A stretch of 64,000 nt of DNA from Cercospora beticola. Its lineage: Eukaryota; Ascomycota; Dothideomycetes; Mycosphaerellales; Mycosphaerellaceae. The DNA is taken from the NCBI RefSeq assembly GCF_033473495.1, contig NC_088942.1, forward strand, positions 2,170,001-2,234,000. The letters are read 5' to 3'. The translations under genes were made by a program, and so were the position numbers. Positions 30,601 through 35,448 of this stretch are shown here, in pieces (the stretch's first letter is position 1; every line of letters starts with the position of its first letter). Below the pieces are notes generated by a model. The model was not told the origin of the DNA. It searched no databases and saw only the letters and a list, made by a program, of their open reading frames with translations.

Positions 30601-33342
30601 TCAACCTTCATACCTCGACGGAGCCTTCCTCTTCCTCGTCGGATACCGTGGCTCCGAATCCGCAGCAGGTTGCGAAGATGTCGGGGTCTTCTTTACTTTC
30701 TTCTTCCTCTGCTGCTTCGTAGGAGGAGGTGTCTTCTTCACTCGTCCTTCAGTCGTCCGTTCTGCCGCGGGCGCAGCCGCGGGAGAAGGACTTTTACTTT
30801 TGCTTTTGCTTCTGCTTCTACTCCTATCCCTCCACCTTCTACCACAAGTCGGACAAGCTCTACTCGCTGGCGTCCTCGTACGACTTCTCGGTCTTGGAGG
30901 TAAATGACTTGCTGTAGGGGTATTTGGTAATCTACGAGGTTCTTCGAGACGATTTTCGTAGCGGAGGTTGTCTACGCGTTGGATTCGGCGGTCGCGGTGG
31001 CGGGGTGTGGGTCTCCGACGATTTGAGGTTGGAGGTGAAGAGCGGACGAGGGTGTCGAAGGTTTGGGCGAAGGGTGGGGAGGTTGGGCCTTGGATGTCTG
31101 AGGCTCGGGGGGTGGAGGGTATGGGAGGGGAGAATGGGGGAGGGGTGGAGTGGAGTCTGTTGGGTGGGGTGCTGAAGGCTGTGTAGTAGCTTGAGAGTGG
31201 AGAGCTTGCGTTGCGGGTTGGGAGGTGTTCCATTGGGGATGGGGTTGGGGCGTAGTTGGGTGATGTTGGGAGGAGGCGAGGAGTGGAGGGGAGTCTTGGT
31301 GGAGAAGAGGACCATTGGCGCGCAGGCGGGCTGGAGTTGTAGGGAGAGTTGCGGGCGGTGTAGTAGGTTGTTGCTGTTGCTTGCGAGGCTCGGGAAGAAC
31401 TGAGTGGCTGGTCGGGGTTTATGGCATTCCAGAGAGAAGTGAGCGGGCTGGAGCGAAGTGGTGCTGGGGGAGATGACGGAGGAGCTCGGGGCGACCCAAC
31501 AACGATTTCTTCTTCCCCAGAATCGTTCTCATCTCCCTCGAGTCTTGGAGAGTATCGACTTCCCTCCTCTGTACTTCCCGTCGAGATGTCATCAGAAACG
31601 ATGTCGGCCTCTTCGGTTGAGCTGGGTTCACTCTCAGAGGAGCTCATCTCAGGGTCATCGGTATCTTCGTCTTCTGGCTCTGAGCTATCATGCCCGAATC
31701 CACCATAACCAGATCCATCATGGTCAGATCCACCATGATCTGATCCATCATGATCGGACCCATTGTGATCAGACCCACCATCTACAAATTCATCTTGATC
31801 AGAGTCAGGAGCATCGAACAATCCATTCATGACTTCCTCAAATGTTGGATGAGGAGAACGGGCTGGAGGATCGTCGTCTTCATCATCACTATCTCTGTCA
31901 AGACAGTGAAAAAGCCTCGGCGCCCACTCCCGAAGTATTTCTTCAGCATTTTGTTCTAAGATAAACTCGTGGAAATTCTCGAGCCCCTTCCTGACATCTG
32001 ATAACGCTCTGACAGACTGGCGCCGCGAGATCGAATTATCTCTAAAGGCTAAATGCCATTGTTCGATCGTCCAGTAAAAGTCGAAATCTCTTGCCATGGC
32101 ATCTTCGACGATTTTGGTCATACGGTCCCTTAATTCGTCAGTTGGCAGTTCTTCAAGTGTTGGCCGAAGTTCAATCAGGAGCGCGAGATCTCGCCATTGA
32201 TGGATCTCGAGTTTGACGAGTCTACTGTCCGTGTACAAGTGCATCGTACCGTAGACGCTGTCTATCGCTCTGCCAATATCGTCACCAGAAGAGGATATCC
32301 GTGTGCGTACCATTGCCGTGACGAATTTCCATGATGCTTGTGGTGGCCACCCACGTTTTGCGAGCCAGCGGAAGTCTTTGCACATGTTGCGGATGATAAA
32401 ATTGTTGTCGTTTCGTGGCGTAAATGGTGAAGGTGGAAGACCTGGACTGGAACTTGGGAAGCGTATGAAGCTTTCTGCTGGCGAAACTTGAGTGGGAGAG
32501 GTTTCGAATGCTGGTGCGTTCGGCAAATTGTTCGAAAGAGCACTGAATGCACCACGCTCTGGACTACGAAGCTGACCGCTTGGAGAAGCGACTTGTTCAT
32601 AAGGATAGTATCCATCGTCGTTGTTGCGCACGTCAAACCAAGGCACGGCCCAATTAATTCGATGGTATGGGTCGCATGGGTCGAAAATCGATTCCAGGTA
32701 TTCCTTGGTCGCTTCCACATCACCACCGTGTACTGCAAGCTCATCTGTGAATTCAAGAAGCAGGTCTTGGTAGTCAAATCCAAGTCGCAAATAGTCCACA
32801 AAAAGTGGAATAAGTTGTTCGTGTAGTCCTTGACTGAGCAGGCGATCCGTGATGTAGCTGGGATCATGGAGTTTGTAGTGCAGATTTGCTACGTCTTCCA
32901 CTGACAGACAAGACTCTCTTTTCACGACTGCTCTCCACTCATCTTCGATCAGATGCGCAGTACCTTCGAAGGATGCTGGCGCCCTGCTGGCAAATGCGTC
33001 ACGGTAAATTTTGGATGCTGATAACCAGGCTGACAAGACATCTCGTCCATTATCTTCCACCCATCTGAGCTCATCCGCAAAGGCCGAGGCGATTATATCG
33101 TTGTGCGCGTGCATTTGGTCGACTTGCACGGCGAAAGTGATGTCTTCATTGCGATGGTAGGCTGTCCGATCGTCGATAACACGATCATAATTGCCGTCGT
33201 GGGACCAATCGTCTCGAATACTGATGGTGTCTGATGACTGATCATTAAGCTGCTCGTCATAGTCCGGTAGATTTTGATCCAGGACCTCTTGGGCCTCGAC
33301 TGGTGCACTGTCTTCTGCCGGTTTACTGGCGTTGTTACCCAT
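30601..33342 (-). CDS. Large disordered protein with MGNNASK N-terminus
   Basis: The frame is open to 33447, but the ATG at 33342 has good context and gives MGNNASKP, which fits the N-myristoylation rule (Gly2, Ser6, Lys7). This start yields 913 residues. Residues ~20-500 are mostly helical and acidic and contain no domain I know (blocks such as DYLRLGFDYQDLLLEFTDEL). A Ser-Asp-His-Gly repeat of five-residue units follows, then a long Ser/Pro region, a CPTCGRRW zinc-knuckle-like CxxC, and a basic C-terminus rich in RSRSKSKSKS and lysine. The combination suggests a regulatory or scaffold protein; function unknown. The alternative start at 33447 would bury the myristoylation motif. Confidence 0.7.
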   Translation of the reverse strand: MGNNASKPAEDSAPVEAQEVLDQNLPDYDEQLNDQSSDTISIRDDWSHDGNYDRVIDDRTAYHRNEDITFAVQVDQMHAHNDIIASAFADELRWVEDNGRDVLSAWLSASKIYRDAFASRAPASFEGTAHLIEDEWRAVVKRESCLSVEDVANLHYKLHDPSYITDRLLSQGLHEQLIPLFVDYLRLGFDYQDLLLEFTDELAVHGGDVEATKEYLESIFDPCDPYHRINWAVPWFDVRNNDDGYYPYEQVASPSGQLRSPERGAFSALSNNLPNAPAFETSPTQVSPAESFIRFPSSSPGLPPSPFTPRNDNNFIIRNMCKDFRWLAKRGWPPQASWKFVTAMVRTRISSSGDDIGRAIDSVYGTMHLYTDSRLVKLEIHQWRDLALLIELRPTLEELPTDELRDRMTKIVEDAMARDFDFYWTIEQWHLAFRDNSISRRQSVRALSDVRKGLENFHEFILEQNAEEILREWAPRLFHCLDRDSDDEDDDPPARSPHPTFEEVMNGLFDAPDSDQDEFVDGGSDHNGSDHDGSDHGGSDHDGSGYGGFGHDSSEPEDEDTDDPEMSSSESEPSSTEEADIVSDDISTGSTEEGSRYSPRLEGDENDSGEEEIVVGSPRAPPSSPPAPLRSSPLTSLWNAINPDQPLSSSRASQATATTYYTARNSPYNSSPPARQWSSSPPRLPSTPRLLPTSPNYAPTPSPMEHLPTRNASSPLSSYYTAFSTPPNRLHSTPPPFSPPIPSTPRASDIQGPTSPPFAQTFDTLVRSSPPTSNRRRPTPRHRDRRIQRVDNLRYENRLEEPRRLPNTPTASHLPPRPRSRTRTPASRACPTCGRRWRDRSRSRSKSKSKSPSPAAAPAAERTTEGRVKKTPPPTKQQRKKKVKKTPTSSQPAADSEPRYPTRKRKAPSRYEG
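31690..31779 (-). repeat. 15-bp coding minisatellite (S-D-H-D/G-G units)
   Basis: Five to six imperfect 15-bp units, encoding GSDHNGSDHDGSDHGG-like pentapeptides, inside the disordered protein gene. On the plus strand they read as repeated CCATCATGATC/GGA-type blocks. Likely variable in copy number between strains. Confidence 0.75.
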
Positions 33343-34303
33343 CGTGACGGAAGTGCTGGGAAACCAAGCTGAGCAATAGCATGTTTGCTTAGAGCCATCA
33401 TCTTGAATGTGTACTGTGACAAAGAGATTGTGATCGAGCTGCCGCATCCGGCGATGGCAGTATCGAGCATAGTCTGTGAGCCCCTTGAGAACAAAGAATA
33501 GCCAGGTCTCGAAAGCTTCATAGGAATGCAGTTTGACAATGAGAAATGCCCTGAGTACCTGTCGTGATTAATTCCACGAATGGTGCTTGCGAGCCAACTT
33601 GATCTAGTACTAAGCAACATGTGAAAAGAACGTTAGCAAGGAGTCAGAATGGCAAATTTGTGCATAGTCTGATGAACTCCTAGTGAAAGTCAGATCGGCC
33701 TGTGCCGTCCCTGGGTCAACTCATGAGCTTTCCAAGTCCGGCAGCCATCGTCTCCAACTTTTCCAAGTTCAACTAAGAAGAAAGGTGGGCTTGACCAGGA
33801 ACTATGCCGTCAAAAGACTGCCGTGGGTCATGTCAGAATTTGGGTCAGGCTCGCTTGGTATTCTTGACACTGGCGATGAACTTGACTGCAAAGTCGATGG
33901 TGTTTACAGTACTGTGCAGAATCGCATAGAAATTGCACTGATCAACGTCTCATGCCCGCAAACTTGACGAGGTGCAAGGCCGGAAAGCGTGTGTGATGTC
34001 CGGAACTTTCTTAGATATGCAGCTTGCTTCTGGACGCTTTGAGGTCGACATCAACATAGAGAATAATTTTGTTATGCCTCGAAGCATTGAGTAAAACAAT
34101 GGCAAGGGCGAAGGAATGTGTCAGCATGTCGTCGGATCTTGGCACTCCGCTTTCGGATGCAAAATTTCCCCACGGCAAACTTTGCACCAATTATTTCGAC
34201 GCACATCCGGTTTCAACCTGGCCCTTTTTGTCAAGCATTATAATTACAATCGAATAATGCTCGTCATCCAATGAGGTGCTCTCAGTGTGCACTCAATTGG
34301 TCA
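33343..34303. other. Intergenic
   Basis: Upstream region of the disordered-protein gene and of the tRNA gene. An AT-rich stretch (ATTATAATTACAATCG near 34238) lies about 65 bp before the tRNA and could help position TFIIIB. No other gene seen. Confidence 0.4.
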
Positions 34304-34426
34304 AGCTCGATGGCGCAGTGAGTATCAATCTTGCACGTATTTACTCATCAATCTCTAACATTACTTAGGCGGAAGCGCGCCGGGCTCATAACCCGGAGGG
34401 CGTCGGATCGAAACCGACTCGAGCTA
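34304..34426 (+). tRNA. Initiator tRNA-Met (CAT) interrupted in the D-loop
   Basis: Mature halves are 34304-34317 and 34369-34426. Joined, they form a 72-nt cloverleaf with every stem paired: acceptor AGCTCGA/TCGAGCT, D-stem GCGC/GCGC, anticodon stem CCGGG/CCCGG with loop CTCATAA, T-stem GTCGG/CCGAC. Initiator hallmarks are present: A1:U72, three G:C pairs closing the anticodon loop, and T-loop ATCGAAA in place of TTCGA. The anticodon loop has no intron. Box B is GGATCGAAACC. Box A is split, but the inserted sequence begins GTGAG, so TGGCGCAGTGAG still resembles box A. The 51-bp insertion is described separately. Confidence 0.93.
34318..34368 (+). other. GT-AG, mRNA-type intron candidate inside the tRNA
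   Basis: 51 bp starting GTGAGTATC and ending ATTACTTAG, with CTAAC at 34355-34359, about ten bases before the 3' AG. These are the same signals used by the protein-gene introns of this window. Removing exactly this segment turns the D-loop into AGCGGAA and gives a complete 72-nt tRNA; no other boundaries do so with GT-AG. Canonical nuclear tRNA introns lie at position 37/38, which is uninterrupted here. Confidence 0.8.
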
Positions 34427-35448
34427 GTTCTTTTGCTATTTGTACAGGTATTGGAAGTGTTGGTATCGTTATTCTTTTGTTCTTGGGGATCCGGGAGCTC
34501 AGGGAGATCTAGGGTGAAATTGGACGAAATGGGCTGCTTTTTTATGCTCGCAAGCGCTGTCTTTTGAAAGAGACAAGCCAGAACTCCAATTGTAGCGTGC
34601 TAACTGTGTGCGGGTTATGATTTATTCTCATATCCAGTTTGATCAAATTTCGTGCACGGACCACGTGCACGGCTTGGCACTGAAGTGAATCTCACGACCA
34701 GGAAACTTGACGCTGCAGAACATAACAACACATACGGCAGTATAGATCACAACAGTATAAAATCGATATGCAGTGGTGCAGGGGGAAAATCCGATGCTTC
34801 CAAGGACGGCGGAGCTCCCGCATTGGACGCAATGAAGAAAGCGGCGATTTCAACAGCATCGTGAACAAGATGGCAAGCAAGCGGCCACTTCTAGCTTACT
34901 CGAGCACACTGGACGAGTTGACTAGTTGTCTTTCTTATGCAAAGCGAAACCGACTAACGGCTATGCAGCCAAAATAAGCCCAAGATCTATGAAAGAGGCT
35001 ACAGTATGACCATGCAATGCAGGACACCTTACGCTGCTGGTTGCTGATTTCTGTTGACATAACCTCTCAAGTCTCTTCGCGTCTTGTATGTGTGCATCAA
35101 ACAGGGTATGCGACGATGTGTTGGCCATACCTCCTATGGGGAGACGAAGTCGATTGCCTTGACGTCACCGCCAAGAACGCAACAACGACTCTTTCCCATG
35201 CTCTAGTGACCTCTCAACCCTGCGGTACGCCGTCCATCAAATGCCATATCGATTTGGCCAGTCTTCCTGCCCAAACTAACTGAGTCACTACGAAAGAAAT
35301 CATTTGGAAGCTTCAGAGGTGCCGTTTAGCAGGACATGACTCCGATAGACAGGTGAGTGCGTGGGGCAGTCCCTGCTGCCTGGAATAACTACAAGAGAGT
35401 ATTCACAACTTCTCGCCTTCTGAGATCAAGAAAGCATTCTTTGAAATC
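34427..35448. other. Intergenic
   Basis: Apart from the Pol III terminator at its left edge, no gene, RNA or repeat recognised. The right end is the upstream region of the cullin-N-like gene. Confidence 0.4.
34431..34434 (+). terminator. Pol III oligo-T terminator
   Basis: TTTT four bases after the tRNA 3' end, the minimal RNA polymerase III stop signal; a further TTTT lies downstream. Confidence 0.6.

Follow-up and report, generated by a model that had tools for sequence, protein, structure and literature searches.

Probable spliceosomal introns in initiator and other tRNA genes of Cercospora beticola

Interrupted initiator tRNA genes

The window, a 64,000-nt stretch of Cercospora beticola DNA, contains an initiator tRNA-Met(CAT) gene (iMet1) at 34304–34426 on the forward strand, which is split by an insertion in its D-loop. 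The first exon (34304–34317) covers tRNA positions 1–14 and, at 14 nt, is a 5′ exon that we take to be unusually short; the second (34369–34426; 58 nt) covers positions 15–73. The 51-nt insertion between them (34318–34368) has GT-AG ends and U2-type signals, namely a 5′ splice site GTGAGT (34318–34323), a candidate branch-point motif CTAAC (34355–34359), and a 3′ splice site TAG (34366–34368) within the closing letters TTAG. The original prediction had described the same insertion and signals, and the sequence bears this out; only its spacing of CTAAC, put at ten bases from the intron end, is corrected to 9 nt by recount. The intron borders are ambiguous by one base (A/G...G/G, with slashes at the borders), and GT-AG ends are obtained in one register.

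Joining the exons yields a 72-nt RNA that ARAGORN names tRNA-Met(cat), with the splice junction (GGCGCA joined to GCGGAAGCGC) between A14 and G15. The unspliced gene gives no ARAGORN call, the program reports no tRNA anywhere in the window, and in a window-wide Rfam scan zero families reach their gathering scores. The mature sequence has an A1:U72 pair, three G:C pairs closing the anticodon stem, an intact CTCATAA anticodon loop, and an ATCGAAA T-loop, as expected from the earlier claims that exact removal leaves a flawless initiator and that the anticodon loop is undisturbed, the insertion lying at 14/15 and not at 37/38. The joined exons thus carry each of the features that mark eukaryotic initiators: a CAU anticodon, A1:U72, the three G:C pairs, and A54 and A60 in the T-loop. 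A54 is likewise an initiator T-loop feature in PMC3978253. For both iMet1 and the second initiator gene described below, the cloverleaf lies at most 1.3 kcal/mol from the free-energy minimum.

The internal promoter elements remain recognisable around the insertion. Box A (TGGCGCAGTGAG; 34311–34322) overlaps the 5′ splice site and matches 11 of 12 letters of the consensus TRGCNNAGYNGG, and box B (GGATCGAAACC; 34405–34415) lies in the second exon. The suggestion that box A stays nearly complete thanks to the GTGAG start of the intron agrees with this count. A TTTT run downstream of the gene (34431–34434) is a likely Pol III terminator.

Elsewhere in the window, eight of the ten open reading frames searched between 410 and 62951 matched Pfam families (beta-lactamase-like, DUF2855, FUSC-like transporter, Vac14, cullin, Sir2, MBOAT, and FAD oxidoreductase). 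The protein encoded at 30604–33447 on the minus strand shares 87% identity with a Cercospora berteroae protein (96% covered) and 93% with one from C. beticola (65% covered).

The genome assembly comprises 36,074,111 bases in 10 contigs with telomere repeats at 20 of 20 contig ends, so any missing initiator gene would have to sit in an internal gap or in unplaced sequence. A search with the whole iMet1 gene found a sole relative, a second initiator gene (iMet2) on the minus strand of contig C7 (C7:114547-114689), which matches at 77% over 140 query bases. Its insertion is a 55-nt GT-AG segment at the same site (14/15); the two introns are identical in GTGAGTATC, including the GTGAGT 5′ splice site, in CTAAC, and in the final AG, and their interiors have diverged. 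The question raised at the outset, whether the window holds the only initiator gene, is therefore answered in the negative, but the second gene also carries the intron.

The initiator anticodon arm GGGCTCATAACCC has exactly two exact occurrences in the genome. An independent anticodon/T-loop pattern, CTCATAACN{8,28}ATCGAAA, gave four matches (one in the reversed control), and the tRNAs among them are iMet1 and iMet2. Within two mismatches of the anticodon arm there were 335 matches against 418 in the reversed control, and none of 17 two-mismatch matches inspected (L016–L032) is initiator-like by eye. The uninterrupted D-arm TGGCGCAGCGGAAGCGC has zero exact occurrences, and its two one-mismatch matches are tRNA-Trp genes. 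Additionally, a 15-mer scan of viral and prokaryote collections for a related eukaryotic initiator gave 41 stretches with a 15-mer; the 60 viral contigs viewed held prokaryote-type tRNAs by eye, none flagged for a TCGAAA T-loop, and the genome contig collection gave 0. As far as these searches go, two initiator genes are found, both interrupted at one site.

If the interrupted genes were pseudogenes, an uninterrupted gene elsewhere would have to make the initiator. One of the 11 places that match the anticodon arm with one mismatch could be read in this way: L010 (C5:666125, minus strand; about 1440–1570 of the reverse complement) is a degenerate initiator-like sequence that lacks the D-loop intron but contains D-arm and anticodon-loop words, and its ends resemble a tRNA acceptor. 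However, inspection by eye shows L010 to lack a T-arm and to have a disrupted anticodon stem, and both initiator genes located in the assembly, whose contigs all end in telomeres, are interrupted. The mature iMet1 and iMet2 sequences also differ in a manner that argues against decay. All eight differing columns (of 72) fall into four pairs (7:66 and three T-stem pairs) in which both sides have changed and pairing is retained, with standard pairs in 100% of cells; with n = 2 sequences, this number of compensated pairs was equalled by 38 of 500 shuffles, and slid controls gave 0–1 such pairs. The four compensated changes suggest selection on both initiator genes, and both look functional. We therefore regard the pseudogene explanation as extremely unlikely.

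Insertions in tRNA-Trp, tRNA-Asp and tRNA-Leu genes

GT-AG insertions are also present in the T-stem, between positions 61 and 62, of two tRNA-Trp genes, two tRNA-Asp genes, and one tRNA-Leu gene, and in the D-loop of that tRNA-Leu gene, giving six further introns. The Trp, Asp, and Leu genes also hold anticodon-loop introns. In the two tRNA-Trp(CCA) genes (L170 on C6 and L169 on C4), the T-stem insertions of 52 and 51 nt lie between C61 and G62. Their identity as tRNA-Trp is presumed from the CCA anticodon and from resemblance to Trp tRNAs of other eukaryotes; ARAGORN names them Leu(cag) when the anticodon-loop intron, whose borders are approximate, is left in. With a whole Trp gene as query, the places listed at E values up to 10 were these two genes, and such counts are lower bounds.

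The tRNA-Asp(GTC) genes provide a direct comparison. A search with Asp1 (L216) returned four places: Asp1 itself, Asp2 (L220), a third gene (Asp3; L232) with an uninterrupted T-stem, and L231 (C3:1083160-1083335), a truncated 5′ fragment in which 34 identical bases are followed by unrelated sequence. After removal of the introns (anticodon-loop and, where present, T-stem), Asp1, Asp2, and Asp3 give an identical 72-nt mature tRNA. The Asp1 and Asp2 insertions are therefore defined by comparison with the empty site of Asp3 and not by a motif, and their GT-AG borders are unambiguous. ARAGORN calls Asp3 tRNA-Asp(gtc); for Asp1 and Asp2, with the anticodon-loop intron retained, its call is Thr(tgt). 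The tRNA-Leu gene (L219/L222) has three introns: one of 54 nt in the D-loop (near 20/21), one in the anticodon loop, and one of 54 nt in the T-stem. Its anticodon is AAG as read by eye and UAA according to ARAGORN.

The T-stem motif GTTCRANNCGTRAGT gave eight matches against seven in the reversed control, corresponding to the two Trp, two Asp, and one Leu genes and three non-tRNAs, and a looser T-arm motif gave 37 matches against 59 in the control; 16 of the 37 were examined, and the five tRNAs among them are the same five genes. Because these counts are hardly or no higher than in the reversed controls, it is the tRNA context, and not the number of matches, that carries the argument. The T-stem search demanded GTRAGT and nothing at the 3′ side, and all five T-stem introns end in YAG precisely where the tRNA resumes.

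The T-stem sites also bear on whether the intron might be retained, with the precursor acting as an initiator whose D-loop is enlarged. In the Trp, Asp, and Leu genes, insertions of the same class interrupt the T-stem, which retention would break, and the splice signals are kept in both initiator genes, whereas the intron interior is not. Retention is consequently exceedingly improbable in our estimation.

On the seven interrupted genes, ARAGORN found none unspliced and all seven when spliced, four of them misnamed with the anticodon-loop intron retained; such genes can therefore escape annotation. In the tRNA census, the Rfam tRNA search scored 62 of 905 candidates.

Several other candidates were set aside. 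A pattern combining D-loop box A/5′ splice site with a distant B-box gave 16 matches against 34 in the reversed control; one is a U6 gene, four (L209–L212) are not tRNA-like at their loci, and the other 11 are known by 80-letter extracts. The word GTTCGAATCGTAAGC occurs at seven places, and the three that were read belong to a dispersed AT-rich repeat and not to tRNAs; these copies (L223, L224, and L225) look like a mutated transposable element. L217, L218, L221, and L226–L230 are not tRNAs by eye. Separately, an AT-rich, mitochondrial-looking tRNA cluster (ARAGORN: Ile, Lys, and Leu; L045, L053, and L056) lies in a nuclear contig at C2:3502591-3503121 and is perhaps inserted mitochondrial DNA.

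Splice signals and the likely mode of removal

All eight tRNA introns are 51–57 nt long, begin with GTGAGT, carry CTRAY 9–12 nt from their end, and finish in YAG. This uniformity is in part a product of the searches: GTRAGT served to detect the T-stem introns of Asp and Leu, so that their 5′ ends were selected and their branch motif, length, and 3′ ends were not, and the Trp introns were found through the D-arm and an intron-like motif, so that their signals were partly selected. For comparison, intron-like segments were collected from 310,607 bases of this genome and outnumbered those in a first-order Markov background with 10 resamples (57 against 17.8, s.d. 4.6; 72 against 27.1, s.d. 3.3). 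Of the 72 segments, 33 are 50–59 nt long, a range that includes the tRNA introns. This set is motif-selected, partly circular, contains two of the tRNA introns as well as a small number of overlapping loci, and serves as a yardstick only; a first, codon-based intron finder was too strict and gave three clusters.

A cleaner yardstick is available in a U6 snRNA gene (L215; C7:2731250-2731700), where conserved U6 sequence flanks three GT-AG introns (49, 50, and 52 nt) whose layout matches that of the tRNA introns. The earlier statement that mRNA-type introns occur in fungal U6 genes thus holds in this genome. The gene is identified as U6 by comparison with L168 and with the known U6 sequence; U6 introns have reportedly been surveyed by Canzler et al. 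in 2016. L168 (1501–1602; C2:3146896-3146997, minus strand) is a second, diverged U6-like sequence without introns, which could either be functional or have arisen from spliced U6, and was the sole U6-like sequence reported by an Rfam U6 search in which 47 of 1862 candidates were scored. Avoidance of TTTT within introns was considered as a sign of Pol III transcription and dropped as not significant (P 0.41): none of the 11 tRNA and U6 introns contains TTTT, but 60 of 65 intron-like segments lack it too (present in 5 of 65).

Introns of the SEN type are removed without any need for GT-AG signals and mostly lie at position 37/38 of the anticodon loop. They resemble the insertions described here in being intervening sequences in nuclear tRNA genes that need removal, and differ in position: the insertions lie at 14/15 in the initiator genes, near 20/21 in the Leu D-loop, and at 61/62 in the T-stems. 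The insertions could nevertheless be substrates of the tRNA splicing endonuclease, like the non-canonical tRNA introns of some archaea and red algae, and the Trp, Asp, and Leu genes do hold anticodon-loop introns as well. Introns in D- and T-arms have been described for Cyanidioschyzon and nucleomorphs, and those of algae and archaea are linked to the tRNA endonuclease (PMC4090602 and PMC3978253). Such introns rely on bulge-helix-bulge (BHB) structures, and here a strict 3-4-3 BHB fits no junction, the four central pairs and the outer helix never occurring together. Central pairs number 2 of 4 for iMet, 2 of 4 for Trp, 3 of 4 for Asp (with 0 of 3 outer pairs), and 1 of 4 for the Leu D-loop, and the Leu T-stem reaches 4 of 4 only in a register excluded by the tRNA, with 0 of 3 outer pairs. 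Additionally, the GT, CTRAY, and YAG signals are not needed by that enzyme (PMC13149111). Endonuclease cleavage is thus very unlikely, and the BHB motif, which together with endonuclease-dependent cleavage was proposed beforehand as grounds for refuting a spliceosomal reading, does not appear in its strict form.

Self-splicing group I and II introns have a catalytic core and span hundreds of nucleotides, whereas the iMet1 insertion has 51 nt and the Rfam scan of the window at gathering scores gave no such intron. A bacterial self-splicing intron of an initiator tRNA gene shares the type of host and differs in mechanism; it is far longer and lies at a different site. The break in the T-stem, the lack of a strict BHB fit, a length too short for self-splicing, and the spliceosomal signals together argue for removal by the spliceosome. 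The best explanation of the iMet1 insertion, to which we assign a probability of about 0.9, is that a U2-type spliceosomal intron interrupts an initiator tRNA gene transcribed by Pol III. This agrees with the original prediction of a spliceosomal-type intron in the initiator D-loop, and the iMet2, Trp, Asp, and Leu introns are alike.

Under this spliceosomal explanation, Pol III would read iMet1 using box B together with a box A that the intron's initial GTGAG preserves. In the initiator, the opening bases of the intron complete box A, and the T-stem introns start where box B ends, a placement with which Pol III transcription would stay possible. In the nucleus, the spliceosome would then excise the intron from the pre-tRNA and connect A14 with G15, and end processing, CCA addition, and export would presumably follow as for ordinary tRNAs. 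Since both initiator genes found need splicing, the supply of initiator would depend on the spliceosome. The same need would apply to both Trp genes found, to one Leu gene (with two such introns in addition to its anticodon-loop intron), and to two of the three complete Asp genes found.

Relation to known introns, origin and significance

According to a 2017 paper (PMC5832005), U3 and U6 were the sole small structured RNAs in which frequent interruption by introns was known. The fungal U6 and U3 introns described there resemble the tRNA introns in their GT-AG borders, CTRAY branch motif, and structured small-RNA host, U6 being made by Pol III, but here the hosts are tRNAs, including the initiator, with D-loop and T-stem sites. 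The archaeal, red-algal, and nucleomorph BHB introns (PMC4090602 and PMC3978253) likewise lie in D- and T-arms, whereas the present introns have mRNA-type signals in place of a strict BHB. A 2026 review classes tRNA splicing as spliceosome-independent (PMC13149111), and the literature searched, which lacks most subscription journals, yielded no description of a spliceosomal intron within a tRNA gene. The machinery and signals are known, and the host RNA class, tRNA, is new.

Introner-like elements are a source of recent intron gain in the Dothideomycetes and probably still multiply in some fungi of the class (PMC4457414). The tRNA introns, from a fungus of that class, differ in not being dispersed copies of near-identical sequence, and whole-gene searches match their own tRNA families only. 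Where introner-like elements would appear as many near-identical copies, the gene-wide iMet query matches two places, with diverged intron interiors.

Some resemblance between D-loop introns was nevertheless seen. The Leu D-loop intron has a nine-letter word in common with one initiator intron and an eight-letter word with the other, at matching offsets. In a word test of intron interiors, its pairs with iMet2 (TCACTTCTC) and iMet1 (ATCAATCT) ranked as the top two of 55, with uncorrected values of 0.007 and 0.01; among 600 intron-like pairs, five likewise share words of at least eight letters, and two of these five appear to be one segment taken twice. In contrast, a global alignment of the interiors gave Trp1 with U6 intron 2 and Asp2 with the Leu T-stem as the best pairs; the Leu D-loop/iMet1 pair had a z of 1.96, and the Leu D-loop/iMet2 pair fell outside the best 12. 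Spread of an intron between D-loops is thus possible, and the evidence for it is suggestive only; capture by reverse splicing, as originally suggested, may account for the introns.

A broader and tentative interpretation, to which we give somewhat less than an even chance, is that spliceosomal introns have invaded tRNA genes as a class in this fungal lineage, at positions that leave the internal promoters intact (in the D-loop, just behind or overlapping box A, and in the T-stem, at the end of box B), and spread in part by reverse splicing between D-loops. All initiator and Trp tRNA would then be supplied through a spliceosome whose U6 is itself spliced, and there would be a direct coupling between translation start and splicing capacity.

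Two essential tRNAs, the initiator and tRNA-Trp, appear to have spliceosome-dependent genes only, and one tRNA-Leu gene seems to require both splicing systems. If the spliceosomal explanation is true, the spliceosome would accept Pol III transcripts with a first exon of 14 nt, the start of translation would be tied to splicing, and this lineage would offer a natural test of intron gain.
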